From Riptortus pedestris (taxonomy: Eukaryota > Arthropoda > Insecta > Hemiptera > Alydidae), in the NCBI GenBank assembly GCA_019009955.1, contig CM032233.1, forward strand, positions 19,687,001 through 19,751,000: DNA of 64,000 nt, written 5' to 3'. A program made the translations under genes and the position numbers. Under the pieces are notes generated by a model, which made no database searches, was not told where the DNA came from, and saw nothing but the letters and a program-made list of their open reading frames with translations. This document shows positions 18,235 to 54,212 of the stretch, one piece after another; position 1 is the first letter of the stretch; each line of letters starts with the position of its first letter.

Positions 18235-18420
18235 ATTCATCTAAAGGAACTTTCGCAACGAACGTAATGGGCAACGAGCACTTCAGAAATGGATGGCCCC
18301 TGAAGAGGTGGTAGTTAAGCCGCGAAATATTTATGGCAATATGAATAAAGTTTTCGCGGAAAAGTAGTTCATTATTAGTGAACCTTGCGATTAAACTATA
18401 AAGAACTATGAACATTTATT
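18235..18420 (+). mobile_element. Penelope-like terminal-repeat remnant
   Basis: Matches the 31-kb PLE terminal repeat on the opposite strand in order: a GGCCCCTGAAGA core, a helix, GCGAAAT, then ATGGCAATATGAATAAAGTT, corresponding to GGGCAGTTTCAATAAAGTTT there. No coding remnant. Boundaries are approximate. Confidence 0.5.
18295..18337 (+). ncRNA. Degenerate hammerhead ribozyme motif
   Basis: Core CUGAAGA, an extra G, helix II GUGGU/GCCGC closing AGUUAA with two G-U wobbles, then GAAA. Helix I (GGCCC against UGGC) has a mismatch at its first pair. Helix III is weak. Probably inactive. Confidence 0.4.
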
Positions 18421-18627
18421 AAGTAAATATTATGAAATAAAAAAAAAAAAAAAAGCTTTGCCCTTCAGCAGTAATAGTTCTGAACTTATGATTATTTCTG
18501 TCAATTCTTTATACCCTGTGTCAAAAATTGATTAAATTCTTATGCTTTTGATGAGCATTCATCAACATTCGTTAACCTCAATTAAACTTATACATTTCTC
18601 TTGATATGTGAATACGCCCAAAGACAA

Positions 18628-18631
<4 letters not shown>

Positions 18632-18659
<28 letters not shown>

Positions 18660-18920
18660 TGCTCTTTCATGATCATGAGCTATATTCCAATTTTTAGGTT
18701 CGAACGAGAGTGGGGGTTATAGGGGAAGCCTGAAATAAGAATTTGCGATATTTTATTTTCTATTTGTCCACAGCAATGACGGGTATAAACCCTAAAAACT
18801 GGAACGGAGAAAAGTCAAAATATTGTGCAAAGTAAAAGCTTGCCAATAAAATACCATCATTATTCAGCCTCAAATGAATTCCCGGGCGAAGCAGGGTAAC
18901 TTAGCTAGTGTGTGTGTGTG
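18632..18920 (-). mobile_element. RTE-like element head, reversed
   Basis: Read on the minus strand it begins ACTAGCTAAGTTACCCTGCT, then TTCGCCCGGGAATTC and ATTTGAGGCTGAATA, matching 9,302 onwards. It continues to the CCCCTATAACCCCCACTC block. Flanked on both sides by GT repeats. Confidence 0.6.
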
Positions 18921-21900
18921 TGTGTGTATTCACATTAATAGTTAGTCTAGAAACTAGAAAGATTTGTTTAACGCGATATTTCTGTTTTAGGAAGGAGGTA
19001 TTATAAGATTTCATAGCTTTAAAAAGCATACTGTAACTTGTGCTTAATAATGCACAATTACCACAAAGTGGACGTTAATAAATAAATAATTAATGCAAGG
19101 TGTCGATTAAGTTGTGAACGAATGTTATAAATTTACAGACATAATAGTCAATAACGGAAATAGTGAAAAATAATTAATGTGCAGGCAATAAGATTTTTAA
19201 GATATCTTATTCTTTTGCAATACTTTGCTGCTAATAAATGGAGTGAGGCATGTAAGAATATACTGTATAAATTAATTTTAATATACTCAATATTTGCTAC
19301 AAGCTTAGTTCAAACAGACAAAACAGTCAATGGACAGAAATGTATTTCATTTCAGCTTTTAGGAATTACAATTTTTTTTTTTTGTTTCCTATATATATTT
19401 CTTAGCAATGCCTATTTCTCAATAAGGAACTTAATGGTTGGCTGGCTGGACGTTGTAACTATGCACTTGAGAAAGCACTATATGGGAGATTACAGAACAT
19501 TTGTATAGAAGCCTTTCCATCTCAAGAGGTGCTGAAGTCCTCGATGATGAAACGAAGGACTGGCATAAAGTGTATTAAAAATCTAGGAAGAGTTATTTAA
19601 CCAAGGATTTCCAGGAAGAGGGAAACTGTTGGAGTAGCTTCGAACTGTCTTCAAAATGACTTTCAAACCATTTTCCCTCGGCCCATTGTTCTCTTCTTTC
19701 TATATAATCCACAGAGAGAGTTAGCACATTTCCGTCCTTCTTTAGGTATTAATGTATTAAATAAATCCCAAAAAAAAATATAGTGTTTTATTATATCCCA
19801 ACGCCATGTGTAAAACAAATACAAACCTTCATTTAAATGGGATATTTTTTGAGGAAATTGATATGAATGTAAACGATCACTAGGGGTATCGATATATTTC
19901 TGATAAAGACGACCAGGGGTCTCGAAAAGATAAAAAAGGAATTACATCATTTTCTTAACAACATTCTGCCGTCACATGGACCACATAGAAGACTCAGTTC
20001 TTCGATGCTGGAATGTCACTTTTGTTCTACTTTTCATTATTGCCTACAGTACCTCTTTCTTCCATATACATGCAGGACGTTTCTAACTAGCTGCTCACCC
20101 ACCTTTGAACAATTTTGAGAATTTGGAAACGAAACTCGGTAGGTCTAAGTTCAGGAGAATTTACCTAGCCTCTTCCAGTTCTTTTCCAGCGCACATAACT
20201 CTGGAATTTCCAACGGAATGGCAACTTTCGAAGAAGAACTAAGAAAACTGTTTTATACGCGTGATTGTTTCCCATCTGATGCGTTCTGAGTCGCACATTG
20301 ACCAAAACCGCAATAAAAGTTTTTAATATTCAAAATGAAGCAAGGTATTAAAAAACACCTTGATACATAATGATTGCCAAAATTATCTTACAAATGATGG
20401 CCTGTTAAAAATGTTATGTATTAACGCAGATGATAAGATTTGTGCTTCTAACCTGTAATTTCGTCTGGATCATTAAAAGCCTTTGAGTCTCCTTGCCTGA
20501 CCGAAAGAACTGAAATTATTATGACAGATTTATAGGGGAAAGCCAATTTTTAAACGATTCGGTTCTTTATGCTTGATTTCTGTTGTCCTGGCCGTTTTTT
20601 AGCAATAGTCGCCAGAAAATATAAAAAGAAAAACACATTTTTTTCAAAGAGACTTTCATTAATATTTCCAGGGAGAAGAGTTCAACCAACCTTAATCATT
20701 ACTAATATTTTACTGATAATGAGTCGGTACCCTACCTAATGCTAAGTAGACGGGGTTTGCTTAGAATGTGCTAAGAAACGTAGGGTGTGCTACATCATTG
20801 ACTAGAATGAAAAGAATATTTCATTCATTACATGATGTGCGTTTAATAGCCAATACCTTAAAATCTTGGTCGGTATATGGCTACCATTTGTCATACTTGA
20901 CACAAAAATGAAAAACTTGAAATGAGTTCTTTGTCCAAAAACTATTCACCATGCGACCAGGTCTAGGACGGATGAGATAAAAAAAAATCGGAGACGTAGA
21001 GTAGCTTTAAAATTTGATTTTCTCTAAAACTCCTTCATTAAAATAATGCCCTTCAATTGGAAATTTCACAGTTAGGCTGAGCAGGAATTATAATTCTTAA
21101 GGGAAATGTGATCATGGAGAGTGATATTACCTACCGTGTAATGTGGCTGTTAGTTGTCAAAGGGCTTCAAGGGTTTAAATTAAATGCCCAGTGTCGAAAA
21201 TTATCGTTTTATACATTAAATTCTACAAGAAACAAAATGTATGATTCATATATTTCTGGTGTATAAAAAAGTCTCAACCTTCCAGATATGTGTAGTTTTG
21301 GAGAATAATTTCGAGATAACCTCTTAATCTTCAGTGCTGTCATTAAATATGATACTCATGACCAGCGTTCATTTATGCCAGTCTTTCTTCATCTAGGTTA
21401 ATAATTACATTTATTACAATATACATTTATTAATAACTTTTGTGATAAACAACCACTTACAGAAGAAAGTAAGTGGTAATTATTTTTAGGTTGCATAGAA
21501 AATTTAGATTCCTACTATATTTTTAAGCATGCTTTAAGTACAAGGAAACTATATAAAATTTTTCCATTCCGAAATCTATAATAGCCGTTATTCATGAATG
21601 AATTTTCAACTCCACTAATAATAAAAACCGGAGTTCTTCACAACTCTTTAAGATGTTAGTGCTAATATTGAAGTTGTTTGCTAAAACTCGGAGTAGTTGC
21701 ATGCAAGAGGTAATGAGAACAGCTTAGTCCGTGAGTCCAAGAACTGGGTTAGGAATGCTGACCGAAATTTGAGAGGTTTTACCTGGGAAGGACCTAACGG
21801 TGTGCTAACCATCCCCTTAATAATACTATATAGCATAACTATAGCAACAGGTAGCAGACCACACCACCTGTCGGCTAATTCCTTTCATCTTCACTTACAT

Positions 21901-23130
21901 TCTGAGTTCCGCTTATCTTAATAAACTGTACTTTTATTTATGTTAAATATATTATAGGTGTTAAACAAAAATAATGACTTACTAAAATAGTGTCCGAGTA
22001 ATTTTGTTCATATTAACTAGTCGGCTTTTGTCAAGAGTTTTCTAATGTCTCTGGTGATTTAAAATATATAATCTGACGAAAAATACGTTTTTGCATTCTA
22101 GTGAATTTATGAGTTAATTTAGCACGTTAACAAAAAAAATGAAAATTATATCCAGAAATTCGAAAAAAAGAATTAAAATAATTGAGCTAATCGTTTCATA
22201 GGTACACCATTGTTGGTGTTCACTACTAGACTACTGATAGAGTATTCATAAATTAATTATGACGTTGAAGTATTTAGTAGGTGATAACTGAGAATTCTCA
22301 CTGTTAAAATAAAACTAGAATCCATGCCACATGACAAATCATTAACTTTTGAAGAGCAACAACTTTCGGCAGCTATAATGATTTTGCTAATTAATCATCC
22401 AATTATTATCTAGATACACTGAAAGGTATATTACTTCAGGACAGTTTCTAAGATCAGGCTAGATAAATTTCCAGTAACTAATCTCCATATTTATAAATCT
22501 TCTTAATAATTATAATTTGACTTTGCTCTCAACCAGTTGGTTTAATTTAGTTCGTCCTTTAATTTTGATTTTTAATTTCTTGCACAAAATAAATGAAGTA
22601 TTGTAATCTTAAAAGTTTTCTGTTTTCACATATAAACGAAATATTCATTTGCCCATTTTGGATAGATTGGGCGTGACGTCTATACGGATGTTGGCTAGTA
22701 TTAGTAGGTTGATGTTTCATATTTGCCATTGTAATGTCTGGATGTGAGCCTTCCCTTTTTATTGAAATTGGCTAAGATGGAAGAAGGGTCGGGTCGTTAG
22801 AGGTGGGTGAAAATAAAAAAATATGTTTGTTCGTGCATAAACACAATACATTTTTACCATGAAAAGATAAATTATGTTGCATGGCATTTTTCGATCTGAT
22901 GCATTGGAAAGGAAATATCGTATATCCCTTTCAAATGAAATAATTTTAAATCAAGTGAACCATAATTTGTTTATTTAATATAATAGGAGTACAAGGAATT
23001 ATGATGGAAATTATGAAAATCTGGCTGATTTTTATAATCACACTTATATTATCTTTTATATATGAGCATTTAGAGAAATGTAATCTACTCTCCTATCACT
23101 GTGTCTGAGGTTAGTGCATACCTATATACT
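18921..23130. other. 4.2 kb AT-rich intergenic
   Basis: Nothing coding recognised. A SINE 3' tail fragment (AAAGTGGACGTTAATAAATAAATAAT) is at about 19,065-19,090. Open frames at 19,179-19,508 (109 codons) and 21,697-21,921 have no known motif and AT-driven composition; I do not call them genes. Confidence 0.45.
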
Positions 23131-23204
23131 AGAATGCCTTCAAATTTGATGGCTAGGGTCTCCAACAAAAAAAAGTTTATTACGGTGCAAACTTTATTGC
23201 AACT

Positions 23205-23246
23205 GCCCTTCATGTTTCGTTGCTTATTTGCCACCACTTCAGGGTG
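23205..23246 (-). ncRNA. Degenerate hammerhead ribozyme motif
   Basis: Corresponds position for position to the better copy at 31,119-31,160, but the core reads CUGAAGU, helix II has a mismatch, and helix I keeps only two pairs. Confidence 0.35.
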
Positions 23247-23512
23247 GTACATCCCTTAATAATTCTTTTGCTCTATATTGTATTAGTAAGTGCCTACATC
23301 TATGATATATTTATTAAATCTAATTATAAATTGCTACTTACATTTCTGAAGTGCTCGTTTACGTTTAACATTACGTTGCAACTGTCGTCAGAGAGGAGGT
23401 AGGTGATTCAAAGAGGTTCCCGTGGTAGGTTAAGTCAGCTGATTACTAATCGATTATTTACAAGTCAATCTTGAATTCGATTATTTCGCGTCATAATTTA
23501 AATTCGATTAAT

Positions 23513-23719
23513 TTAAGATAAAATGTTAGAGAATATATGATTGACGTATTTGATTTCTGTTTTTTCGTTTACTGCCCTTTTTCTATTTTTTATTATGTGA
23601 ATGTTCTCTTTTATTTTCCGTTTAGTATTATTTATTTCTTTATCAATTATTTGAACTTTTTTCAAAATTGAAGGTGTGTTTCCTGGAGACAGAATGATAC
23701 AAAGCAGTTTTATTTTCAT
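23513..23719 (-). pseudogene. PLE GIY-YIG endonuclease C-terminal remnant
   Basis: 68 open codons with VQIIDKEINNTKRKIKENIH then IIKNRKRAVNEKTEIKY. The sibling copy at 31.6 kb continues upstream into HSTSRKHTFNFEEVQVIDKE. Together these resemble the H.F.F....VLDKE....R...E...I...K..VN region that follows the GIY-YIG domain in Penelope-like polyproteins. Here a frameshift lies just upstream. No catalytic residues are present in this piece. Confidence 0.5.
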
Positions 23720-23730
23720 TATTGTCTATG

Positions 23731-24583
23731 GGTTTTACGTGTTGCTTTAAGCTTTTATTCAGGAGCTGCGAGGATTCACCAATACAAGTTCAATACAATA
23801 TATTATATTTAGATTTTGATTCAGCTACTTTATCCTTAATTTTACTAAAAGAATGCCCTTGGCAAACAGTGGTGTTTCCAGACTGTGTCTAATCCACTGA
23901 GGCTGAAGTGAAACGGAATCTCACTAATGATTCTAGAATTTTAACAACTAAGCAAAGGAGAGTATTTCGAAATCATGGGGCTTATCTAGTCACATAGTTT
24001 CCGGGACGTGGAGTTGGTATAGTGAACATATTTATAATCTAGGCTAAGCAAAGCGGTTTTTAGTTGGAACCGGTTTTCAAGCACCTTTATAGACGGATCG
24101 GCGATTCTAGACTAGGAAGAGAATGATATGCCTAGCCTAGAGAGTTACGAATGTCCTAGTTCAAGTTTCATCGAGGCATTATATATTTTGGGACCATTGG
24201 GCCAACCGTACGATGAACCGGCTCCATCTAGATTGACTATTCCGTTTCAATTAATGGATTATAGCTGTTTTGATTTCCAGATGGTGAAGTTAGGAATAGT
24301 TAAATAGGTAAACAAGCCATTTTTTATATTGTTTACAGTCTTAATGGTTCAGAATGGAGCTGACATCTAAATTAGAAACAGAAAAAACATCCAGCCTGTT
24401 ACCAACATACTGAGCTGAAATTTGTAGTCTTAGCAAGCTCACACTTGTCTGTTCTTTTTAATAGAGAAACTCTCAGAATTAATTGTTTTAGCTCCCATAT
24501 AAGTTAAATATAATTAAAATATAATCCACCTAATTAAATTTTATCATCTGAATTGTAAATGCATTTCCCAAAGTTTGAGATAG
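23731..24583. other. Intergenic, nothing recognised
   Basis: No coding, RNA or repeat signature supported. Confidence 0.45.
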
Positions 24584-24684
24584 TTCCTGGGTAGAATCAA
24601 TGGATATTTGAAGAAATTTGTCAAAAATCCCATTGTGAGTACAACCTCAATAGCTGATTTCCCTTAAGGGCAATCTGCTAAAAA
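24584..24684 (-). mobile_element. R1 repeat, head fragment
   Basis: Last 100 bp of the head: CCTGGGTAGAATCAATGGAT...GAGTACAACCTCAATAGCTG, the palindrome with one change (CCCTTAAGGGCAATC), and TGCTAAAA. Confidence 0.8.
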
Positions 24685-25371: not shown

Positions 25372-25451
25372 ATCGATGTATATTTGAAGCACCCTTTGGC
25401 TACTCATAACACAACCTTAATAGCTTTCCTTTAAAGGAAATCTCTTAAACT
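25372..25451 (-). mobile_element. R1 repeat, decayed head fragment
   Basis: TATTTGAAGCACCC...CAACCTTAATAGCTTTCCTT with a palindrome remnant, CCTTTAAAGGAAATC. Strongly mutated. Confidence 0.5.
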
Positions 25452-25868: not shown

Positions 25869-25912
<44 letters not shown>

Positions 25913-27692: not shown

Positions 27693-27746
<54 letters not shown>

Positions 27747-27989: not shown

Positions 27990-27990
<1 letters not shown>

Positions 27991-28071: not shown

Positions 28072-28348
28072 TATTTATGAACGTATTATTTTAGAATTTT
28101 TTTTAGCCATAAGGTCAGAAAAATAATAGTTCCTTATGTAGTCCTTTATTTCATCCCCAACGCGTTTCGTGTGCCACCACTCCTTCTCAAGGGGGTATTT
28201 CTATATAAATTTAGAAAAAAGAGTGTAATTTAAATTCATTTTTTCTAAACACGTTCGAAACGCGCCGGGGATCAATTACAGTACTACATACGTAAGGAAT
28301 TGTTATTTTCCTGACCTTATGCCTCAAAAAAACATTCTTTCATAAATA
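28072..28348. mobile_element. PLE-type inverted terminal-repeat pair
   Basis: Two arms of about 90-100 bp face each other: TATTTATGAACGTATTATTT ... CATAAGGTCAGAAAAATAAT at the left, mirrored at the right end by the complement of CATAAGGTCAGGAAAATAAC. Each arm carries an AACGCGTTTCG / CGAAACGCG block of the kind found in Penelope-like terminal repeats with hammerhead motifs. No coding sequence remains between the arms. Confidence 0.6.
28155..28195 (-). ncRNA. Degenerate hammerhead ribozyme motif
   Basis: Helix I CCCC/GGGG, helix II GUG...CAC, then GAAA and the self-complementary ACG/CGU helix III with U at the cleavage position. The first core box reads CUUGAGA instead of CUGANGA, so activity is doubtful. 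Confidence 0.4.
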
Positions 28349-28520: not shown

Positions 28521-28836
28521 CCCGGAATTACATGCCATACTCTTGTGACTGTCACACTTACAGATTACAACACATGACATTACTATATTCTCTGATTCAT
28601 TGAATTGTTTACTTTCCTTGAAAAACATTTATAACACACATCCTTTAATTATTCAGATTCTAGAACAAATTTCAAAATTAAAGAATAAAGTAACAATGAT
28701 GTGGGTTCCAGGATATGAAAGCATCGCACGTACAAACGACCTGGACAAACTCGCCAATCTTGCTACTCTGAGACAATCTTCTGGCTTTGACTTACTAACT
28801 CTAGCAGACTTACATTTACAAATACAACAGACATGA
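28382..28836 (+). pseudogene. LINE ORF2 RNase H domain, split by (TA)n
   Basis: Before the TA tract: NGSKTEKGTCAAGIIGDD and YQINLPSS, the first-Asp region with D changed to N. After it: TPELHAILL with the catalytic Glu. Then ITIFSDS with a catalytic Asp, and VTMMWVPGYESIARTNDLDK with LANLAT, matching the usual WVPGH.GI.GNE.AD.LA pattern. The TA run at 28,460-28,517 encodes only a Tyr-Ile stretch and sits exactly between two RNase H motifs. Confidence 0.85.
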
Positions 28837-31007: not shown

Positions 31008-31118
31008 ACTAATAACGTTCTTCTTATTCTGGACCCTATATTATTCATATATTCTTCATATGATATGGCAAGGGTCACCAATAAAAAACATTTTTTTGGT
31101 GCAAACTTTATTGAAACT

Positions 31119-31160
31119 GCCCTACATGTTTCGTGGCTTACTTGCCACTTCTTCAGGGGC
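31119..31160 (-). ncRNA. Hammerhead ribozyme motif (PLE type)
   Basis: On the minus strand: helix I GCCC/GGGC (4 bp), core CUGAAGA (fits CUGANGA), one extra A, helix II GUGGC/GCCAC (5 perfect pairs) with loop AAGUAA, GAAA, helix III ACA/UGU with no loop, and cleavage-site A. All conserved core positions are satisfied. The loop-less helix III suggests cleavage as a dimer. Confidence 0.72.
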
Positions 31161-31499
31161 TATCCCTTTTCAAAAAACATATAAAAATCTAATAATATTA
31201 ATTTAACACATCCCTTAATATTTCTTTTGATAGATATTGTCTTAGTATGTGCCTACATCTATGATATATTTATTAAATGTAATTATAAATTGCTACTTAC
31301 ATTTCTGAAGTGCTCGTTTCCCTTCTACATTCGTTGGACTGTCCTCACAGAGGAGTTAGTTGATACTGAGAGGATCCCGAGGTAGGTTAAGTCAGCTGAC
31401 TACAAAACGATTATTTACAAGTCAATCTTGAACTCGATTATTTTAAGTTTAACGTTTAATTTAAGATAAAATGTTATAGAATATATGATTAAGGTATTT

Positions 31500-31735
31500 G
31501 ATTCCTGTTTTTTTATTTACTGTCCTTTTTCTATTTTTTATTATGTAAATATTATCTTTTAGTATTGTTTCTTTCTTTATCAATTACTTGAACTTCTTCA
31601 AAATTGAAGGTGTGTTTCCTGGAGGTAGAATGATCCGTCAAAGCAGTTTTATTTTCATTATTATTCATCAAGAAATAATACGCAGACTCAATAAAGTTTG
31701 CACCGAAAAAATGTTTTTTTATTGGAGAGCCTTGC
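31500..31735 (-). pseudogene. PLE endonuclease C-terminal remnant
   Basis: Minus-strand reading contains NENKTALTDHSTSRKHTF then NFEEVQVIDKERNNTKR before a stop. The pattern H-[ST]-F-x-F near an E/V-LDKE block matches the end of PLE endonuclease regions and the copy at 23,513-23,719. The GIY-YIG core itself is not included. Confidence 0.55.
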
Positions 31736-31765
31736 CATAAAATATGAAGAATGTACTAATAGCGT

Positions 31766-32813: not shown

Positions 32814-33773
32814 TTTTTTCTCCTCATAGTAACCCTATGAGGAGTAATTTATTTGAATACATGTTCCATTGACACATGGCATATTACATGTATGATTATG
32901 TTTAAATACATTTTTATTTTACAATATACAATCAACCACCTAATCAAATATAATAAATCATAATAGTAAAATAAAATATTAAAATAAGTATAAAATAAAG
33001 TAAGATAATTACAAATAAAATTAACAAATGAATTGAAAAAGAAATTAAATAAAATAAAAAAAAAACATATTAGTTAAAGTAAAAATCAACCGATGTTTAA
33101 TTTGCGAGTCCATGTAAGGTAAATATATTGAATTATAATTCTCATTCCTCACAATCAACTTTACATTCTAATGTATTTTTGCTGCATCCATATCTATACT
33201 TTTGATAAATTTTATTTTAAGTTCTTTGTTACATTTATTAAATATAATATGAGGTGGTTCTGGCCAATTACCTCCTTTTTAAAATTATGTTCATTATTAA
33301 ATTTGATCTATTTTGATTAAAAGTTGAACAGTCATTAAGTATATGTAAAAACGTTTGTGTTGTCTGTGAGTCGCAAGTACATTTGTCATTGTCTTGAATT
33401 TTAAATCTTGTTAAATAATGTCCTGTCTTTCCATGTTCCGTTAGAAATTGTGGGCATTTGTGATGGTGACTCTTAATTGTGTTGTAGTTGCTGTGAGTTG
33501 TATTTGGTATATATTGATTTAAGCTGTAAGCTTTGTTACATGTCGTCCATTCTCTGTTCCACTTATGTATTGAACTGCTTCCTTTGCTAACGTGTCAGCT
33601 TGTTCTTTTCCAATATTTCCTGAACGCGCTTCTATCCAGTCTATGTGCATGTGTAGATTTAAATGTATAATTTCCAGAATATTTTGTCTAATGTTTTCTG
33701 CGAGCGGGTCGTGTATAGTAGGTTTGCGTATTGAGTAAATGAGAGTCGTGTTGTCTGTGTGTATGGTCGTATA
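32814..33773 (-). mobile_element. 5'-truncated LINE with long target duplication
   Basis: Flanked by a 16-bp duplication with one mismatch (CACCTTGAGA[C/G]TATTT, 32,798-32,813 and 33,774-33,789). On the minus strand it holds part of RNase H, the ORF2 C-terminus, an AT-rich 3' UTR, a terminal 10-bp stem-loop (32,820-32,844) and a short A tail. Truncation within RNase H is typical of incomplete target-primed reverse transcription. Confidence 0.82.
32820..32844 (-). other. Stem-loop at LINE 3' end
   Basis: CTCCTCATAG and CTATGAGGAG pair perfectly (10 bp) around a 5-nt loop, immediately before the A tail on the minus strand. 3'-terminal stem-loops are recognised by the reverse transcriptase in some LINE families; that role here is inference. 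Confidence 0.6.
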
Positions 33774-33776
33774 CAC
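33290..33776 (-). pseudogene. LINE ORF2 RNase H and C-terminal region
   Basis: RNase H part: YTTIHTDNTTLIYSI (catalytic Asp) and DWIEARSGNIGKEQADTLAK (final Asp, usual HxGxxGNExAD pattern with His replaced by Ser). After a break the frame continues around 33,300-33,430 with GHYLTRFK...DKCTC and QTTQTFLHILNDC, the C-terminal Cys/His knuckle of Jockey/R1-like LINEs. Confidence 0.82.
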
Positions 33777-33789
33777 CTTGAGAGTATTT

Positions 33790-34699
33790 GAAGAATGAAA
33801 GAGGTCTCTGCGCTTACAATAAATTGTAAGAAAAACCTAAGTTATATTTATTGGTGAAAGTCGCATGACACATGGTAGTGGGAAAAGTGAATAAACACAT
33901 TTAGTGGGATTACTTATTCTTGTCGTTTAGTCTAAACATACGAATAAAACGGTACAATTTTGGTAACTGAAAAGATCTGTTCTTAAAACAATTATAAAAT
34001 ACATAAATGCCTATTTGCTTGAATTCCTCTCATTTTTCTGTTATACTTGGGCTAAGTGATGTGTATGAGTATGAATGGAGTAATTAGGACATGTGTTGGC
34101 AGGGAAGTGTCATTGTCTCGTGGCATTGGTTGAAAAGGCATTATCATCACTCGTACCATTCATTACCCTCACCTCTCTACCAGCCTATTCAACATAAACT
34201 CATCCTGGTTCTCTTCGCTCCTTCTACTACCTGTGCCAAATACTAATTAAATCCTTTGTTATTCCCCACCACACACAACCCAAATCTATTTTTCTCTCTG
34301 TGTGTCTCTTTCTCCTCTCTATTTCATTCTTTAAATGCTATATATATATGCTATACAAATTATCTTGTTACTTTCTCCCTTTTAAACCAACTTTTGAGGT
34401 GAGTTAGGAACAATGGATTTAGGCATCTTGGTTGAACATCAATTGAATGAGATTCAATCAAGGCTTCCATGAATAGATAAATTTGTTGAACTAGTCATCT
34501 CTCATTTCCAGCGTAAATGAAGACTATTTATTTTTATATTACAATATACCGCATCTACTATTGTCATTAGCGGTAGGTGGTTCTATATTTCTTGGAACAA
34601 ACAAGTTACAGCTAAAAACATACAAAGCTTTTTATGTCTTCTTCATCGTCTCTAAGGAGTTCTCTTAAGTTCGGTTTAAAGTTCAAAGCTCTTCTTGGA
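33790..34699. other. Intergenic, nothing recognised
   Basis: No gene supported. The region around 34,140-34,320 is less AT-rich but has no open frame of note. Confidence 0.45.
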
Positions 34700-36694: not shown

Positions 36695-36760
36695 GGAAAG
36701 CAAAATTTGGTTTATCAGAAACACTTTTTTGTAGTTCCTCACTGTTTATTTCTTAAAAAC

Positions 36761-36799
36761 GCTTAGCGCTTTCGGGAATTAAATTCTCATCTTCAGAGC
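36761..36799 (-). ncRNA. Hammerhead ribozyme motif (PLE type)
   Basis: Minus strand: helix I GCU/AGC (3 bp), core CUGAAGA, an extra U, helix II GAGAAU/AUUCCC with loop UUA (one A-C mismatch), GAAA, loop-less helix III AGC/GCU, cleavage-site A. The right-arm copy restores the helix II mismatch (GGGAAU/AUUCCC), showing the helix was once perfect. Confidence 0.72.
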
Positions 36800-36924
36800 T
36801 ACTAACAATAAAAACCATAATTAAGGAGTCTTAAAACTATTTTTTTTAAATATACGTAATTGGTCATCCCAATGAAAAAAAAATAGGTTTTAGACTCCTT
36901 AATTATGGTGTTTTATTGTTTGTA

Positions 36925-36963
36925 GCGCAGAGGATGGGAATTTAATTCCCGATAGCGCTAAGC
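36925..36963 (+). ncRNA. Degenerate hammerhead ribozyme motif
   Basis: Mirror copy in the right arm. Helix II is perfect (GGGAAU/AUUCCC) and helix III intact, but the core reads CAGAGGA and GAUA in place of CUGANGA and GAAA. Confidence 0.5.
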
Positions 36964-37066
36964 GTTTTTAAGAAATAATTAGTGAGGAGCCACAAAAAAG
37001 TGTTTCTGATTAACATTATTCATCACCCTCACCACCAGCTGAAAATAAAAATGGGAAAGCAAAATT

Positions 37067-38870
37067 CCTCTCCTGCTTTGGCACGGAAGAAAGATGTTCG
37101 GATACTCTAAAGAGCAGCAATAAATGAAGTGTCAAAAGAATCGACGAGTTAATGGATTTGCATCGCAAAGCTGGCATCAAATTAGCTATTTAGAAAGTCT
37201 GACTACAGTGGTTGGGTGATAAGATGGATGACATAGTAGCATGACCTCATACGTAAATATTGCTCACTACTACGCACAATGCCAGGTAGTTTGAGGGGAA
37301 ATATGCGAATTTTTCTAGTAGATTTTATTAATGACCGTTGAAGAGATAATGTAGAGCTCAATCTATGAGACTATGAATCATGTAGTTAAACTGTTTTATG
37401 ATTTCAAGATCTTCGCAAGCTATTTTCTATTGTTTTTATTCTCTATCATGAAAATTTTGTTCAAGCCTTGCTTTACATAATGAGAAACTTACTGTCAGTC
37501 CCATCTTAGTCAGTCTGAGTATATTTTTTTTATAATGCTCTTTTTACATTTTATCTAATATTGAGGTTGAGGGAGGTAGATGTGTGCTGTAGAATCTATC
37601 ATGAATCTATTCAGTTCACCGATGATAAATAGGGACAAAACTGGAAGCCATTTTTCGATAGAACTGAAACATTTCGGTGTCATTTGGTGAATTTGGAGTT
37701 CAAGAAGGCAGATAATTTGAAATGGAGGAAAAAAAGGTGTCAAATTCCTGCCTGTCATTTTTAACTGGGTAGCCTGGACTCTAAGCCCTCAATAGGCTAA
37801 GGATAATATGAAGTAAAGGGATTTCTCCTTGATAGTAATTATAAATCTGTTAATTTTTCTCTAAGCAGAATGAGAGTACAAGTAGATGGAAAATATTATC
37901 TTTTGTTTTAAACGTGTAAACCTTCTGAAGAACTGTGTATATTCTGGTCTAACCCCCTACTTTTTTTGCTTGTACTATTTTTCATATTGTCTTTGCCTCC
38001 TAACTCGAACTTTATTCTTATTAAAGTGCTTTCATTTTTATAACGATTTGTGTATCTTGGTCATTTAAATCTACTTTTTACAAATGGATATATTTATACA
38101 GTGACCGCCTCGAAGATTTAAAAAGAGGGCGTTTTCAGGATGTACGTATCCACGTCAGAGAGTTGCTGAAGTCGGTTTAGCCCGAAATGTTTCCTCCTTA
38201 TGCAGTACAATACGTCTGGTCGGGTTGTTAGTTGATGGGGATAAAGAAGTGTACTAAAGAGCCGAGTAAAGATCCTCTGGTTGGCAAGAGAAATAATTAA
38301 TTGTTTTGCATTTAAAACATTTCTCACTTTTTTATTGAAATTCTTCGTTGTTTCCCCACTTACTGGTTGTGGGTCTTTGGAAATGACACTCTGCGCTCAC
38401 CTTTCTTTTATATTCTGACTAATGGTAATTGTTAGAGGTTGTGCTTCACAGTTCCCACCCTTGACCGGTGATGTTAGTGTGCTTTAAGCTTTGAAGGACT
38501 TAATGTTAAAGTCTGCTGGAAAGAAGTTTTTAATCTTGTGTATACATACCTCAAGTTACACTGTGATTTAAGGCGTTGATAAGGAAATAATGTCCGCCGA
38601 GAGAGCAACGAGTTAAAATAGGTGAAGAAGTATTGAAATGTAAAATCTTAATTCGTCATATAATATAAATCGTTTTTAAAGGCATTATATATACGAGTAT
38701 ATAATTCCTTTTATGCCAATAAGATTGGCTTTAATATACACGTATTTATTAACGGTGATATTGTATTTAATAATGGTGATATTTCGATTTTTCGAAATTT
38801 ATATCCCGGTGCAAGGACCTCCTTACCTGTTATTAGCATTGGAATTAACGAATTTATTGAAGAATGCTGT
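37067..38870. other. Intergenic upstream of the host gene
   Basis: No gene recognised; it should contain the promoter and any 5' UTR exon of the gene that follows. A CTGAAGTCGG...GCCCGAAATGT block near 38,163-38,195 is reminiscent of a decayed hammerhead but fails the core. Confidence 0.4.
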
Positions 38871-38882
38871 TGTTTCAGAGAA

Positions 38883-39123
38883 ATGGATGGATGGCTGCTG
38901 ATATGTGTGGGTGTAGTGTCAGGTGTGCTGGGCAGTTCGATGGGAGACGAGAAGCCAGCTGGTCATCACCGGGAGAAGAGGATACTGTGGATTACCAACG
39001 ACGGGAGACTGGCTCTCCCACCTGGCACCCTCCTCACCATAACTCCTACCATATCCATGCCCTTCGTCAGGTACCCTCCCGATGGATTCCTTTCTAACAT
39101 GACTATCAGCTTACCCTTCACAA
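38883..39123 (+). CDS. DM4/DM12 gene, exon 1
   Basis: Encodes the signal peptide, REKR and the RILWITNDGRLALPPGT block, a family feature right after the basic site. Donor is CAA|GTAAGT, phase 1. A TTGTTTCAG at 38,870-38,878 just before the ATG looks like an acceptor, so a non-coding exon may lie upstream. Confidence 0.85.
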
Positions 39124-39905
39124 GTAAGTCACCCATATTCTCTTCTGGATAAATTTAGCCACTAAAGTAATCTAATCTATTTTAATAGAGTCGCCTTTTC
39201 GAGTTCTGTGTACTACGATTAAATACTTATTATAGAAAGTTCGTCACGCAGGGGCTGCGTAAACTAACAGATTTCCCTCGTGAAGTTTAATAATAGATAA
39301 ACCTAAATATTGCAAACATAACACCACCGTGAATAAATACAAACGGTAATAAGAAATAAGAAAAGAAGAAGAAAAAACCTCCTTTTTGAGGTGGAGGGCA
39401 GGTCTCGTTCAAGATTAATACGGTTTCGAGGGAGCCCCTACGACCTCCTATCTGAGTATCTCCCATTTCCCCTCGTTTTTTCCTGTATTCTACACTTATA
39501 TGATTTCTGAATGTTCCAATTGTCAACCAATCAAAGGACAATTCTTTGAGCTATTTAATTGTATGAACTAACAAAATAATTTAAATATGGTAACAATTTA
39601 ATGTGTTCTTCCATCAGGACATCGAGAACAAGACTAGATAATTAAGCTGAGTTCAGGCAAGTAGGAGATAAGGAAGGGGTTTAATCCGATCAGTAAACGA
39701 GCAATTAGTCAGTATTCCAGTATCAGTAAAATGTATAGGTCAGCATTTGTAGAAAACTACTTGGTTGAAAATGTTCATCATATAACATTTTCTAGTTAAA
39801 CGTATATTAACGATCTAATTATCAATTTTCCAATTAACCCACTCCCTGAGATTGTCCTTTTGGTCTAATTTCACCCACTTTTCGATGAGTGTTTTCACTA
39901 TCAAT

Positions 39906-40153: not shown

Positions 40154-41849
40154 GTGGTCATCCTTGAGGCATCATTTTATTTATGTTAGATTTGCTAAAA
40201 CAGTTTTTACCGTAATACAAATAAATAGTGTCTTAAAATAATCATTTTTGTAATTTGTTAATAATATGTTAATTTGCATACAACTAGGGGCTGAAAATCT
40301 GAAGACTTAATTAAAGAATAAAATGAATACGAAGGAAATTAATAGAAGAATTTTAGACGGAATACTCATAATGGTCAATAAAAAAGTGGTTTGCATGGTG
40401 GTTACACCTTTGATCTGTGGATTGGAAAAATGCAGTTATTTTTCCATGGCCCTTCAATCTGTAGTTAGTGGTAGGGGTTTAAATAGCAAAGAATGCAGTG
40501 TTCTATGTAATTCCTACAATACAATTATCACACACTTCTACAAACCTATAATATTGTGGCGTACTGAGCCAAATGTAGATTTTTACAGTCGAACTTTTGG
40601 CATTCATTTGCAAGTGGATGATGTTGATTGTATAATTGGTCGAGTCCTCTTGATAACATCTTCCTTCTCTGAGGTGTAAATCCTTCACACTTTGAAAATC
40701 ATAATAGTCACTTAACATAAAAGGGTTCCATCGACCATATCGTTATAGCGGTTTTCCATTTTCGCATCCTCGCAGAGTTTGTGCTTCTAACTGACTCATG
40801 ACTCGATTTTCAACAAAATTTCTTCCAATCCATTTTTTTGTGGTGCTGGATGGTGAAGGAGTTATTATCTCAGGTAAGAAAAAACGCCTCTTTCCTTCAC
40901 TGTTCTTTATTCGTTGCGACAGAGCGCTTTCAGAGCATACGCTCCATCATCAGTGCCCTGCTGGCAAACAAATACCATAAAAACCATAAAAACGTTTTAT
41001 ACGTCATTTAATTAAACAATTTAGAAAATATATGTACATGTCGATGGTCAAGAGTTAAAACAAAGAATATTTACAGATATAAGAAAAACTATTTTTACAG
41101 ATTAAAATTAAAAACTTGTCAGTAGAATATATACACAATTTCAATAAATAGTTAAAATAAACAAATGAATAAAAAATGAATATTTACAGTTAAGTCTAAA
41201 ATAGAATAAATAGTAAAAAGCGAATAGTCCAATTAAAATTAAAAAACAAAAATGAAAAAACAAAATGAAGGAACAACCACCGGAGGAGCTACAGAAAGCA
41301 ATACATACTGAAAACGTAAAAGAGAAATTGAGAAGCGAGACAACGACTAACCTCTTCACAATGATGTGACCGGAACCAAGGATTCCCTGTGACTGAGGCC
41401 TCGGGACCGGAGAGCAATGAGAGAGGCTTCCGAGACATGGTGTACTTCCAGGGTGTGCTTTATTGTCTCATGGCAACTATTCAGGTACGAGTGCAACCCA
41501 TTAAGTTCTAGCATGGTACCTTTAAAAACGATAAGAACATTATCAACATAGCGTCCCCAGAACAAGTTTTTAATTTTAATCTGTAAAAATAGTTTTTCTT
41601 ATTTCTGTAAATATTCACTGTTTTAACTCTTGACCATCGACATGTACATATATTTTCTAAATTGTTTAATTAAATGACATATTGTACAACGTTTTTATGG
41701 TTTTTATGGTATTTGTTTGCCAGCAGGCCACTGATGATGGAGCGTATGCTCTGAAAGCACTCTGTCGCAACGAATAAAGAACAGTGAAGGAAAGAGGCGT
41801 TTTTTCTTACCTGACATTTCTTCCAATGTCCAAAAAATGAGGTACTATC

Positions 41850-46418: not shown

Positions 46419-46489
<71 letters not shown>

Positions 46490-49350
46490 TTTTAACGCTC
46501 TAGCTGTCGCAATTTTTGGTTGATCGTTACCAAACTCGATATTTAAACGTTTTATGCAAAAAGACAGATCAAGTTCGTTAATGGCTGAAATCGAACCAGT
46601 TGGAGGGGGGGGGGTATAGAGGGGGAGATTTTTGAAATATCTCCGTTACCGTACGTCGAATCAAAAAATTGTATAAAACCAATGTTATTGCAAATTAAAT
46701 TTACTATAAATATTTTTCTGTACATTTATTCCCTATCTTGAATATTAACCGAGATATTTACATTTCTATTAAATGTAGGCGAATAACGGACGAGTGAGTT
46801 CCCGCCAAAACCTAGTTCGGCCGTTTCCGTAGCTGTTCGGCTCTCTTATGGAGATTTCTCTATTGTATAACTTTACGTGGGAAATCTGCTTAGTTTAGGC
46901 AGCACCTGCGTGACGGACTTTTTTTCATTCAGAAATGGTACTAAGGGTTTCACTTTCTTGAGACTTAGTGATTGCTCTTAGGAAAGACTTCGAAGTCAAA
47001 TAAAACGGAACCGAGTACGGTGAGGGATTTTTTTCTAAAGGCCTAAAAAGTATTAATGTTGGGTGAAGATTTTAGTTTACGTTCAAGTTTAATTTACACA
47101 TCCATATTGCCTTACCTCTCAACTTAACTTTAATTGAATCATTGTGATGAGTTCGGCTATCTGCTCCAGCGGTTTGAATTTATGTTGTTAGGCAAATTTT
47201 CGATGGAAATGCGTCCATCTTCGTAAGGCAATAAATTTAATTTGAATAGTTACTTAATTTAATCATATGTTTTGGATTTTATTTGAATATGGTGTTCCAT
47301 GTTTCAGAGAGTATGAACTGTTCCACGCCGTTTACTGTATTTGTTCTTTTGTTAATTTCGAGAGCTTCTAGGACCAATCTTTTACCGAGGTGATCTTCTA
47401 TGTGTAGAACTTTTGTCTCATCGAATTTACTTTGGTGAGAGGGGCTTAGGTTGGCCGTGAGGGTTAAGGCGTTGGCCTTGATTTCGCATGGTAGACCTAG
47501 AGTGGCGGGTTCGATTCCCGCCCTGGGCAGTAAAAAGTTATTTAGTGATGGACTCATTAAATAAACTCCTTGATAACCCGTCCCGATTAGCCATAGTAGC
47601 ATAAAGTGGACGTAATTAATAATAAACAATAAACTTTGGTGAGAACAAATACTTGCGTGTCTTGCGTGCTATGTTCTCTGGTGTTTCAGATCAGCCATTT
47701 GTTGGTTGACTCTTGTAGCAGTCTTCTTACCTGCCTGTCCCACACAATCTTTACAGAATATCTCCTTTATTCCGAGTCTAATCGGGAAATGTTATAGAGT
47801 CAATCTTGTTAAACTATTAATGCTCTACAATTGTTGTTCTTTACATTTTCTCTTAACTCAAATGTTAAGCAACTTATGCTTAACGACTTTCGTGCTTTCA
47901 GCCTTCAGTAAGGGCAACAGCCCTTTACTAAATAATATTTGACATTGAAATAAAAATATGTGGTGAAATGATATGACAAGTGTATTATACCAGCACGTGG
48001 GACACCAGCTTTCTTTATGCAGCTCCTGCGTGACGGATATTTTGGATTGCCACTTACAGGGCGAAGTTAAACATTGTAGTGTCTCCTTGCCTCAAGCCAC
48101 TGGCTATATCAAAGTCACAAGAGACGCCACCATAGGTCCCTATATGATATTTCGCGTTATTAGCTGACCTGAAGTACACGAGATTCGGAGTTTAGGGGAT
48201 TCTTTCAAAATGCTGGAGTTCACGTTTCTTAGTTGCAGCACGTTGAAATGCCTTTACGGGATTGTTGCAGAAAGTAATAGTGTATAAGCAGGTATAAAAG
48301 TAAAATAGTAATTGGCTCCTGATCCGCTTTAAGAGTTCACGAGGAAGGCGAAAGCTCAAATATATAAAGCGGTCAACCAACAGTTACCTACCCCACCAAG
48401 AAAAACAGGAGAGCGGCTGAAGCCTGTGAGAAAAGAAACCTGAGAAAAATATTTGAAGGAGTGAGAAAGCAGTCCAGATGTAGGATCAAAAGCAGCTAAT
48501 ACTCTGACTTCTTTGGCGAGCCTGATATCATCTAAGATATTAAGGCAGGCAGATTCCGTACTTCGGGAGAATGAATCCCAACAAAAAGATATGCAGGAAA
48601 AATCTGTATGGTAGGTTGAGACGGAGGGATAATGCCTAGGACTTACGAAGGCACGTGGCTAGGACGCACTGAACAGTGTAAGACGGTGGGATAGGGCCAG
48701 GTCCTAAGGGGACTGTAGCGCCCAAACTATATAAACAACACATATATTATACGTCTTTATTTATTTATTTATTAACGTCCACTTTATGTAACTGTGTCTA
48801 ATTGGGACGGGTTATCTAAATAAATTCCTATTGCCCAGGTGGGAATCGAACTCGCCACTCTAGGTTTACCATGTGAGATTAAAGCCAAAGCTTTAACTCA
48901 CATGGCTAACCTGAGCCCATTACGTCTTTTTTTAAATAAAAATTTTTTTTTTGTCCTAATTCATTTAGCTGTTCTTTGGTTTTTTTTAATTTTAAAGCAA
49001 ACATTATTGAAAATGAAATATCAAAAATATTAGTATCCGAATTGCACACTATTTACGAATTTGAAAGAGGGAAATTGTTTTAGAATATTATACCAGTAGG
49101 CAAGGTGTATACAATGAACCTTTTCATATCCCTGGAACAGATACACCAGTGTGCATAAAAGCACGCGTGAACTCGCAAGCACATACAAAAAGGTGCGTTT
49201 GAGCGTTGAATCCCTCACTCACAAACTCACACAAGGGGTCGCACTAACTCACACAAATATACACAAACAAAAAGGTGACACTGAGCGAGCAAGCCTTCAC
49301 TTTTAAAGACAAACATGTGAGTGTACTAACTCAAATGCACATGCACGCAT

Positions 49351-49391
<41 letters not shown>

Positions 49392-51414
49392 AAGTTACTG
49401 CGTGGAAGCACGAATACACACTCAAGTGATCGTACTAGTTGGCAGTCTCATACACTCACATATATCAAAAGCAGGTTTTCGTCTGAACCTAATTCCAGTA
49501 GCTCAACAAAGTAATTTAACCATTAAAAAGTTTGGATAGTCGTGACTGGCTTCTCTTTCTTCTGGATTACCTCGTGAGGTAAGAAATCCGTCTGTTTCTT
49601 CATTCCACAAAAATAAAAAGTTAAAGGTAAAAATATGGATATTTTATATTGTTTTCAAACCAGGAGAGGTTTGTAAAATATTATTATTTTTTTCTTATTG
49701 CATATTTATACTAGTATTGGGACTTAAGTTAGCCATGTGAGTTAAAGCGTTGACCTTAATCTCACATGGTAAAACTAGAGTGGCGAGTTCGATTCCCGCC
49801 TGGGCAATAGGAATTTATTTAGTGACGGAATTCATTAAATTAAATCCCTAGCCTCACCCTGGCTAGAAAAGAGTGGTAACCTGTAGAGTACCCGTCCCAA
49901 TTAGCCTTAGTTGCGAAAAGTGGACGTTAATAAATAATTTAAATTCAAATACTAGTATTGTATGATACGATGTCTTTATGTCGTAAATTATCGTGAAACT
50001 GTAACTACGCTATGACATTTGCATGTACGTACCCGTATATAAATTGTATTCTAATAATAAAATATAAACTAATTTCAACGACCAATATCATGGAAATTTA
50101 TCATTTGACTATTGATTTTGTTTTTCCAAATAAGCCTCCGTTGAATTTTTTTACTCAGAGATATTTGTTCATAAGGAATAGTAGGATGAAGTTGACTTGA
50201 AAATTTTGGCGAGCGTGTGATGACTAAGAGAGTACAGCTAACTAATGAAAAGATAGATTTATATCATATATCGTAGGATATAGGTGTTTAGTTGCAATAT
50301 CATCCCAATATGTTTAAAAAAAATATTTAATACAGTATCAAATGTTCATATCTTTTAATTTGTGACATTTGAATATTCAAGAAAAAATGCTGAGCTGTAG
50401 AAAAGAAGTTACGGTGTTATGAACTCTAGACTTTGTTAGCCGAGTTGTAATTCTACTTACAGTTGGTTCTAAATTGACTTCTCCAAACAGTAAATTACGG
50501 AAAAACACTCTCAATAAAGCTAAAAGGACCACTTGTGGCTTCCAGACCGCAGGCTTACCACTACTGGAATATACCATTTGTCTTTTATACAAGGAGAGCA
50601 TTGAAGCTGGATCTGCGGTTGCGGCGTCCGTTTCATATTGCAGTAATCATGTCTGGGGTTTCTTTCTTTGCTTCACCACTTAATTAGATAAAAAAATGAA
50701 CTGGTAAATTAACTGGTAATTATTTAAATTAAATTAATTGGTAACCCATTACCAGGAAACACAAATTACTAGACTTAAATTCTTATCAATTACGCTTAGA
50801 AACAATTAATTAGCAGCATATTTTATATCCGTGGGGAATGTATGTATTGAAGAATTAAACAAAGTCCGTCACACAGTGGTTTATAAACTAATATTAATTT
50901 GATTGAAAACTATTTACTATATCTGGTTCTGTAATTTATAATGAATCAGAATAATTTTTAGATCAATTAATCAAATTTAAGTAGTCCAAAAACTTAAAAT
51001 GGGGGGGGGGTACCAGAACATATTGGCATGTATCTCGTGTAATAAAGATCTCTGGAAAACAATATTTGGTATTTAAGTTTTGAATAATGTGTTTTATTAT
51101 ATAACAGTGTATTGTTAGTTTAACATTAGTAGAAGTGGGGATTTGCTGAAGGCTTAAAACTATAAAATCCAGATATCTCGGTTAATATTTATGATACAAA
51201 AAATAGAACAATATTTATAGATCATTTAACTTGGTTCTATACAATTTTCGATCCAACTTATAGTAACGGAGATATTTCAAATTTTCCCGTCTAATCCACC
51301 CTTCCCATTCATTTCAGCCATTAACGAACTTGATATTTCTTTTTGCATAAAACGATTAAATATGGAGTTTGGTAACGATCAAACAAAAATTGCGACCGCT
51401 AGAGCGATAACAGA

Positions 51415-51463
<49 letters not shown>

Positions 51464-54212
51464 TTGAACGGACCCCATTTTTGACATCCCTGGGTAGGAT
51501 CGATGGACATTTGAAATTTTTTTTTTCCAAACTCGCGTCATAAGTACGACCTCACTAGCTGATTTCCCTTAAGGATAATCTGTTAAAAGGGTACATAGAC
51601 AAAAGTAAATATTTTGTAGTAATTTATTTAGGTCCACTTTATGCTACTCTGGCTAATTGGGACGGGTTATCTACATGTTACTACCCTTTTCTAGCCAGAG
51701 TGGGACTAAGAATTTTATTTAATGAGCCCGTCACTAAAGAAATTCCTATTCTCCAGGCGAGAATCGAACTCCCCAATCTAGGTTTACCATGGGAGATTAA
51801 AACCAACGCCTTAACTCACTCGACTAACCTGAGCCCCCAAAAAGAAATATAACACTTAGTAATACTGTTAAGGTCTTCGGGTATTGACCGTGTCTGAATT
51901 TTCTTGGTATCGGTCCACCTAGGCCAGCACCTTAACTTCATCGAATTTGATGCTGTGATTAGTTTCCCAGAAGTGTTCTGCTATTGCTGATTCTTCTGTC
52001 CGAAACTTTTTCAAACTCTTGATATGCTCGGCGACCCTGGAGTTTATCAATCTGCCGGTTTGTCCAATATATTCTAAGCCGCAAGAACAGGGTATGCTGT
52101 ATATTCCTGGGATTTTTGTCTGGAGTTGATCTTTGCAGAGATAGCCCTGAGGAAGCTAGAAGCATGTCTAACGAAACGTTGGCAACTAAAATGCAGACAC
52201 GGTCAATACCCGAAGACCTTAACAGTATTAATGACCAGGACCGTGGAAGTCTACGAGTTTATTTAAATATAACGCTTATGTAAAATTTACAAGTATCTAA
52301 TCTTTCTTGTAATCTAATGTGCTACGTTGCCAGGAAGTTTTTCTATCTCGAAAATTATGGAAGTTATTTATATTTTGGCGATTTCAGTCTGTAGATAAGA
52401 CCGATTCCTAGTCATGCGATTTATATTTGATGATGGTATATCAATAAATATCTCATGCATATCATACATTTCAATTGTTGCGGGCGGAGGGGTGTACTAA
52501 GGAGAAATAGGAATTGAAGATATCGCCTGGGGATCATTCATGAAAATAGAAAATCCACATAATACGAGAGCCGTTTTTAATTCACTCTGTCCTATAGATT
52601 AGAAAAGCGTCCATAAATAATGTGTTTGATGAGTAAACATTAAAAAATAAATCAATAAACACATTTGTTTCCATCGATACTCGAAAAAAGCTCAAATCTG
52701 CAATAAATATTTTAACGGGCACTTTCTCATATTTTTAAGATTTCGTAGCAATGAATATTATGTATTCCTAACAAGAACTACTCCAGTTTGCAAACAGTCT
52801 GGAGTGTCAAGCTCTTTGGAGTTTGTCCTCCTTACTATAATAGTACTTGACCCTTATTGTTTTAGTTTGAAGAGTGGCGTTCTTTTCACTATTCAGGAAC
52901 TAGCTTTTAAAGAACAAACATTTCTCAACAAAAAAGAAAAAGAAACTATTTTATAAATTGATATTATTCATAATGGTTGGAATAATTATGTGGTGGATCC
53001 AAATTGTGTTCAGTAGATAGCTAATAATATATAATTTCTGTTTGTACTTTTTGTGCAATAATATGGATAAACAAAAGTCCTTCACGCAGGGGCTGCGTAA
53101 ACTAAGCAGATTTCCCACGTGAAGTTATACAATAGAGAAATCTCCATACGAGAGCCGAGCAGTTACGGAAACGGCTGAACTAGCTTTTGGCGGGAAACTC
53201 ACTCGTCCGTTATCCGCCCACATTTAATAAAAATGCAAATATCTCGGTTAATATTCAAGATAGAGAATAAATGTATGGAGCAATATTTATAGTATCCTTA
53301 ATTTGCAATAAGATTTCTTCTATACAATTTTTTGATCCGACGTATGGTACAGGAGATATTTCCAATTTTCGAATATCCCCCCTCTAAACCCTCCCTCCCA
53401 CTGGTCCGATTTCAGCTATTAACGAACTTAATCTGTCTTTTTGCATAAAACGTTTAAATATCGAGTTTGGTATCGATCAAAAAAAAATTGCGACCACTAG
53501 AGCGTTAACAGGCAAATATATACATATATATATACATATAATTTTGAACGGACTTCATTTTCGTCATCTCCTGGGTAGGATCGATGGACATTTGAAGAAA
53601 TGTTTCGAAAATCGCGTCATGAGTACGACCTCATAGCTGATTTCCCTTAAATTAAATCTGCTAAAAATAGTATTTGGTTGCAAAATACATGGATTTTCAC
53701 AAGCCACAATAGTGAACCACCAAGACTTGCTAGATTTGATGAAATTTGTTTTAAAAAAATGTTTTGTGACATACTTACAGAATCAGTGTATTGTTAAGGT
53801 TCATTCAAATTGCATATATATTTTTTTCTAGCAGAACCCAGTAAAAGTCGTTTTAATTATATCATGGGTTTTATCGCACATGTGTTTACTCACATTAGGC
53901 AATAGTGCTAAGGTTTTAAACTAATATTATTACTTGTTTTTAGTTAATTTCGATATGCTGGGGCTCACGGACAACCAGAATCCATACGGAGCTCTGCCTC
54001 CGATAATAGCCCGAGGAATAGGGCGAAGTGCTGGTGCCTTGGTTGCTGACTATGTTGCAAGTCTCTTCAACAACAGGAGGTCATCCCGAGCAAGTCCCGA
54101 TGCCACCCCACCCAACACTAAAGGATTATTTCATGGAGGAGAGAGGTAAGAACCGCAACAAGAAACTATTGGAACCAGTTGCATTTACAGTTCAGACTAG
54201 TCGTATTTACAC

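Follow-up and report, generated by a model that had tools for sequence, protein, structure and literature searches.

Candidate Penelope-like element remnants with minimal hammerhead ribozyme motifs in a 64-kb window of the Riptortus pedestris genome

Seven loci, at 18.3, 23.2, 28.1, 31.1, 36.8, 41.0 and 52.1 kb of a 64-kb window of the Riptortus pedestris genome, carry hammerhead ribozyme-like sequences within probable remnants of Penelope-like elements (PLEs), a kind of retroelement. The window is the whole stretch of DNA analysed, 64,000 nucleotides (nt) of contig CM032233.1 (assembly GCA_019009955.1, positions 19,687,001 to 19,751,000, forward strand). We scanned both strands for motifs, read the loci directly and grouped them into families, here lettered A to E, by local alignment of the window against itself. 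Family A unites three loci: 23,138-23,723 aligns with 31,054-31,662 (78% alike over 634 aligned columns), and 18,287-18,412 with 31,169-31,044 (75% alike over 127 aligned columns). An initial annotation had proposed at least seven hammerhead-bearing PLE remnants from diverged families. Seven loci do exist and four of them have good motifs, but the count was generous: the loci at 18.3, 23.2 and 31.1 kb are related by self-alignment, and the number of independent families was overstated. The tally now stands at seven loci in five families, with nine ends that bear a motif and four motifs that are good (Table 1), and it takes in two features that had been overlooked, the second motif copies at 36.9 and 41.7 kb and the inverted-repeat layout of the loci.

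Table 1. Coordinates of candidate PLE remnants, hammerhead motifs and the endonuclease-like frame in the window (percentages, identity between inverted arms)
Feature	Coordinates	Strand	Details	Basis
Family A, best-preserved hammerhead	31118..31161	-	predicted cut between 31123 and 31122	descriptor, model, fold
Family A, candidate PLE remnant	31042..31761	-	inverted arms 31042-31120 / 31682-31761 (86%); also holds frame 31555-31698(-), hammerhead, AATAAAG and tail	
Family A, candidate PLE remnant	23138..23723	-	degenerate hammerhead 23204-23247; frame 23516-23725(-)	
Family A, fragment	18287..18412	+	hammerhead 18295-18338, core intact, imperfect helix III	
Family B, near-complete palindrome	36710..37014		two head-to-head terminal arms	self-alignment
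Family B, hammerhead	36759..36801	-	core intact, one helix II mismatch	
Family B, second-arm motif copy	36923..36965	+	core and GAAA mutated	
Family C, remnant	40867..41817		inverted arms 40867-41119 / 41562-41817 (96%; 253-256 nt) around RT-like RYVDN frame	
Family C, hammerhead	40917..40958	-	core intact	
Family C, second-arm motif copy	41726..41767	+	retains the core; lacks one helix I pair and the helix III palindrome	
Family D	51860..52230		43-nt inverted arms 51860-51902 / 52188-52230 (98%) around GIY-YIG endonuclease-like frame	
Family D, hammerhead	52142..52185	+	core intact, one helix II mismatch, 4-nt helix III	
Family E	28097..28332		inverted arms 28097-28169 / 28256-28332 (80.5%)	
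Family E, off-consensus hammerhead-like sequence	about 28154-28196	-		model, inverted-repeat listing
Candidate GIY-YIG endonuclease remnant (motif evidence)	51922..52140	-	open frame of 73 codons holding GIY(x9)YIG, T.R and R..EH	

Local inverted repeats are present at five of the seven loci, and at all five the motif and its tail face outward. These five account for part of the 22 rows of inverted repeats with copies less than 2,500 nt apart; the other 17 rows, not traced singly, were read as AT arrays, copies of short interspersed elements (SINEs) and other dispersed repeats. The second arms of families A and D have the tail without the motif, and that of family E lacks the core. Seven of ten ends (31.1, 23.2, 18.3, 36.8, 41.0, 41.7 and 28.1 kb) carry AATAAA 8-13 nt past the predicted cut or past the position equivalent to it, and it is absent from the 36.9-kb second arm, the 28.3-kb second arm and the 52-kb locus. 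The 31.7-kb second arm, which lies beyond these ten ends, also has AATAAA.

A strict first scan returned complete motifs only at 31.1 and 41.0 kb. We then applied a graded descriptor, composed after the earlier claim had been read, that comprised the core CUGANGA, zero or one extra base, helix II, GAAA, a self-complementary helix III of 4-8 nt, H17 and helix I. It scored 42 at 31.1 kb, 40 at 41.0 kb, 38 at 36.8 kb and 36 at 52.1 kb, so that these four main loci exceed every one of 100 dinucleotide-preserving shuffles (top score 35; mean of 0.06 matches per shuffle at 34 or above). Lower scores were obtained at 47.2 kb (35), 28.1 kb (32) and 18.3 kb (30), and the 23.2-kb locus was unlisted.

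The order of parts given in the initial annotation, from helix I through the core, extra base, helix II, GAAA and loop-less helix III to the cleavage base and the other strand of helix I, was confirmed at the four main motifs. Each has an intact CUGANGA, helix II, GAAA and helix I, and each has one extra base after A9 (4/4), which bears out the uniform extra base described before. An extra core nucleotide is also reported for a viroid hammerhead, to go by the title of a paper cited in PMC6155905. The cleavage base is A at 31.1 kb, A at 36.8 kb, C at 41.0 kb and U at 52.1 kb, and helix III at these four loci is self-complementary over 4 or 6 nt, the reduced, loop-less form. A core of CUGANGA...GAAA with A15.1-U16.1 and H17 was found at the four main motifs and at 18.3 and 41.7 kb, and did not hold at 23.2, 28.1 or 36.9 kb. 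At 18.3 kb the core is kept, but one helix I pair and the self-complementarity of helix III are gone; A9, U16.1 and helix pairs are missing from the 23.2-kb motif, and the 28.1-kb motif is without a consensus core. The wider claim that all seven motifs keep core and pairings stands at 31.1, 36.8, 41.0 and 52.1 kb and fails at 23.2 and 28.1 kb, whose degenerate or off-consensus motifs score close to noise. Two of the four helix II pairings that had been quoted in its favour, GAGAAU/AUUCCC and GCUAGA/UCUAAC, each contain a mismatch.

One further candidate, at 47,190-47,231(-), was rejected as a chance match: its descriptor score of 35 equals that of the best shuffle and its 13.4 bits in the five-sequence covariance model (R2, below) are no better than control DNA. 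It has no AATAAA close downstream and no local inverted repeat around the motif.

Covariation across families, as the initial annotation had proposed, is above chance. We aligned five sequences from four families (31.1, 36.8, 41.0, 52.1 and 18.3 kb), helix III included; in this alignment, hand-fitted to the structure and made of loci selected because they pair, standard pairs fill 53 of 59 cells (89.8%) and 8 of 12 pairs have changed on both sides. When the partners were slid by 1-3 columns, pairing was 24.5-41.0% with 0-3 two-sided pairs. Column shuffles also reached 8 two-sided pairs in 8 of 500 cases and the observed pairing percentage in none (0/500). As a fairer test, a covariance model (R1) was trained on the 31.1-, 36.8- and 41.0-kb motifs only and searched against the window with filters off, giving E-values that are rough. 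Beyond its training set it matched 41.7 kb (E 4e-6), 18.3 kb (4e-5), 36.9 kb (1e-4) and 52.1 kb (0.034), and more weakly 23.2 kb (0.4), an unrelated site at 60,024 (1.2) and 28.1 kb (2.5). The 18.3-kb match belongs to a trained family (A); only the 52.1- and 28.1-kb loci lie outside the training families, and one of these two, 52.1 kb, was recovered. The second, five-sequence model (R2) gave 15.5 bits at 28.1 kb and 14.8 bits at 23.2 kb, where unrelated viral-contig DNA reached up to 14.4. This negative control consisted of 8 of 75 viral-contig loci (98.7 kb). Those 75 stretches (20 + 55) came from a scan of the viral contigs with two patterns and were all helix-scored; the best 15 of the 75 contained no coherent PLE hammerhead.

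Hammerhead-like strings might have been picked by eye from 64 kb of AT-rich DNA, and chance of this kind would suit both the lack of an Rfam hammerhead match and the scores of the 28.1- and 23.2-kb loci near those of control DNA, with 28.1 kb falling below the unrelated site at 60,024 in model R1. It would leave without a cause the four loci that score above all 100 shuffles, the recovery of a fourth family by a three-family model and the position of five loci on local inverted repeats, two of them with PLE-type protein motifs, and we regard it as highly improbable. The hammerhead motifs are real and above chance.

Putative coding remnants lie between the arms of two loci. The pattern G[IV]Y-x(7-12)-Y[IV]G of GIY-YIG endonucleases occurs once in the six-frame translation of the window, on the minus strand at 52 kb, where it is extended by T.R and R..EH (52,024-52,107); in 200 shuffles the short pattern arose 0.015 times per shuffle and the extended pattern never (0/200). 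A reverse transcriptase (RT)-like RYVDN motif likewise occurs once in six frames, at 41,530-41,553(-), with 0.18 expected by chance. Two family A frames, 23,516-23,725(-) and 31,555-31,698(-), resemble what we take to be the C-terminus of the PLE protein. On the other strand of the 52-kb locus, an ATG in the helix II loop of the hammerhead opens a frame, 52164-52280(+), that continues across the tail; stem II is where the open reading frame (ORF) of the Anolis element starts (PMC11167929).

Covariation, an inverted layout like that of the pseudo-long terminal repeats (pLTRs) of Penelope, and GIY-YIG and RT-like motifs in two loci together make PLE remnants with hammerhead motifs the best reading of these data, in agreement with the initial annotation. 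We put at roughly 90% the probability that the loci descend, by truncation and decay, from copies of at least four, probably five, Penelope-like retroelement families.

Two other kinds of mobile element could give rise to parts of this picture. Inverted ends bearing a fortuitous hammerhead-like string are what foldback or miniature inverted-repeat transposable element (MITE)-like DNA transposons would leave, and the near-complete palindrome at 36.7-37.0 kb and the 253-256-nt, 96% alike arms at 40.9-41.8 kb have that appearance. Such an origin is very unlikely, given that five families with differing arms share the same outward motif, or a worn form of it, mostly followed by AATAAA, that one locus contains a GIY-YIG motif and another an RT-like motif, and that inverted pLTRs are in print for PLEs (PMC3846280). 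Non-autonomous hammerhead retrozymes, short tandem repeats that give rise to RNA circles, are an equally poor candidate. Animal retrozymes do bear type I hammerheads, with RNAs of 170-400 nt (PMC7229834). Against them, self-comparison reveals inverted copies and no head-to-tail repeat at these loci, and two of them contain protein motifs, an endonuclease-like one at 52 kb and an RT-like one at 41 kb. The 31- and 23-kb frames, with their presumed likeness to the PLE C-terminus, also argue against retrozymes.

Several results weigh against the assignment to PLEs. No hammerhead family reached Rfam gathering scores anywhere in the window, and with the limit relaxed to E 10 none was reported for 15-55 kb or in the short-stretch scans, which covered the 41-kb locus (40,860-41,820) and the 31.1-kb locus (31,040-31,240). 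No Pfam family matched any of four protein fragments above cut-off, with only weak, unrelated matches to HEF_HK (E 0.33) and RPGR1_C (E 0.019). A protein database search with three fragments, the 52-kb GIY-YIG and 41-kb RT-like pieces included, found no match, and the Protein Data Bank held nothing relevant to those two pieces. A single-sequence AlphaFold model of the 52-kb GIY-YIG piece was poor and unusable for comparing folds, with one helix and a mean pLDDT (predicted local distance difference test) of 49.7. A local inverted arm was not found at 18.3 or 23.2 kb, and none of the six loci other than 18.3 kb had a convincing target-site duplication. When two copies of a motif were co-folded, the minimum was a fold other than the double hammerhead at seven of eight motifs (41.0, 36.8, 52.1, 18.3, 41.7, 36.9 and 23.2 kb), and in single folds of six motifs another structure was preferred at 41.0, 36.8, 52.1 and 18.3 kb. 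Since no search backs the coding frames, PLE identity rests on motif, layout and hammerhead jointly.

The initial annotation had named two results that together would speak against it, no hammerhead covariance match and no cleavage; the Rfam search gave the first of these, with no match at any of the thresholds used. The permissive matches over 15-55 kb were mostly microRNA models on AT repeats, which we took as artefacts. The silence of Rfam may arise because its models do not cover minimal hammerheads whose helix III has no loop, a suggestion made with no positive control. As searched, Rfam release 15 does not report these motifs, so that annotation by Rfam only would miss them.

Energies of the double hammerhead were computed for the eight co-folded motifs (31.1 kb and the seven named above). 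At 31.1 kb the double hammerhead is the cofold minimum, at -35.4 kcal/mol versus -30.6 for two monomers (2 x -15.3). Among the single folds two motifs have the hammerhead helices as their lowest-energy form, that at 31.1 kb (-15.3, z -3.3) and the off-consensus one at 28.1 kb (-11.1, z 0.0). Of the eight co-folded motifs, that at 31.1 kb is the sole consensus motif predicted to be able to act unaided, and most copies look too worn for self-cutting alone. The hammerhead of PAc, the Anolis element, cleaves only with protein, and weak folding here is therefore no proof of past inactivity.

If the loci are PLE remnants, each copy would end in the terminal repeat of its element, made up of a hammerhead, mostly an AATAAA, and then a tail, and the inverted arms at five loci would repeat all or part of that end on the opposite side. 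The ribozyme would be the minimal PLE type I form, with an extra base after A9 and 4-6 self-complementary nt in place of a looped helix III. Its action, if any, would be by two molecules or tandem copies annealing via helix III, possibly helped by the protein of the element. Because helix III is self-complementary and loop-less, action as a dimer or in tandem is expected; because the second copies are inverted, a single transcript would lack a head-to-tail double hammerhead, and pairing would be between molecules. Ancestral copies would have cleaved as dimers. PLE hammerhead variants are said to cleave in this way, according to the title of a 2017 paper by Lunse, Weinberg and Breaker.

It is possible, though in our view unlikely, that the short inverted arms start where the ribozyme cuts itself; with five loci this is a lead only. 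The inner arm end lies 2 nt past the predicted cut at 31.1 kb, 7 nt past it at 52 kb and 11 nt before it at 28.1 kb, so that an arm start exactly at the cut was found at none of the three loci checked. In families B and C the arms continue a long way upstream of the cut, no more than five of the loci have arms, and mutants of the PAc ribozyme had no effect on insertion in vitro (PMC11167929); all three points count against it. If it were true generally, a new copy would have its second end templated by the 3' RNA piece left after cleavage, which would give the PLE ribozyme a role in vivo.

Other repeats surround these loci. Two 300-nt direct repeats, 2166-2465 and 5751-6050, are 99% alike and flank frames within 2166-6050, one of which has RNase H-like reverse-transcriptase matches; this is probably a young Gypsy-type long terminal repeat element. 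Dispersed repeat copies on both strands at 11548-11763, 47441-47619, 48767-48918, 49719-49935, 51622-51837 and 58753-58965, 79-92% alike in the listed pairs, are probably tRNA-derived SINEs, and the only Rfam gathering match of the window, a tRNA at 47444-47529, lies within the second of them. An unclassified many-copy repeat, on both strands and often adjoining an AT array, recurs at 12.0-12.7, 15.9-16.4, 17.3-18.1, 43.1-44.1, 46.3-46.9, 51.0-51.6, 53.1-53.7 and 56.2-56.9 kb. RNase H and zf-RVT fragments below Pfam cut-offs, at 28549-28833(+) and 33271-33836(-), probably derive from LINE (long interspersed element)-type elements. An open frame at 38664-39149(+) reads like a host exon; Pfam, searched to E 1, gave no match for it. 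Long CT/AG microsatellite runs occupy 13999-15115, and AT arrays recur across the window.

The density of remnants had been presented as remarkable. By their coordinates the seven loci add up to some 3.3 kb, or roughly 5% of the window, against a published Penelope content in decapods of 3.40% of fosmid ends in Penaeus monodon (PMC3124438) and 5.18% in Macrobrachium nipponense, the highest among the decapods surveyed (PMC10454600). A PLE content of about 5% is at the upper end of these figures and not outlandish, the comparison of one window with genomes serving as a yardstick only.

The inverted layout has a counterpart in Penelope, where an inverted pLTR stands beside a direct one, the tail measures 31 bp, 5' truncation occurs and junctions are most often head-to-head (PMC3846280). 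The Penelope families of Adineta vaga described there resemble the window loci in their inverted head-to-head pLTRs, short tail, truncation and palindromic junctions. They differ in that the window copies are remnants with no complete ORF and no convincing target-site duplication, and hammerheads have 0 occurrences in the excerpted text of that paper. PAc, a Poseidon-type PLE of Anolis carolinensis, shares with the window loci a hammerhead in the pLTR-ORF region, a tail and, going by motif, a GIY-YIG endonuclease; its hammerhead cleaved only after protein was added (PMC11167929). Newt and viroid hammerheads, which are active as dimers, likewise have a weak helix III, with pairing expected between two copies, and their dimers are joined through an elongated helix III. 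They are transcripts of satellite DNA or viroid RNAs, whereas the window motifs belong to probable PLE repeats (PMC6155905).

The closest likeness is to minimal type I hammerheads. Many metazoan genomes contain thousands of these, usually without the non-conserved part of helix III; they are mostly dispersed, some lie in the pLTRs of PLEs, and PLEs keep them in tandem (PMC7761336). According to the same source, minimal PLE hammerheads may self-cleave via dimers, and their activity and role in vivo are "still a mystery". As described in PMC7761336 and PMC6155905, the minimal type I PLE hammerheads of Cervera & de la Pena (2014) and Lunse et al. (2017) are like the window motifs in core, helix II, GAAA, absent or minimal helix III, position in the terminal repeat and predicted dimer action, with no difference shown. 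The kind of element and the motif are thus already known, and the finding is real but ordinary: it adds further members to an established pairing of ribozyme and retroelement.

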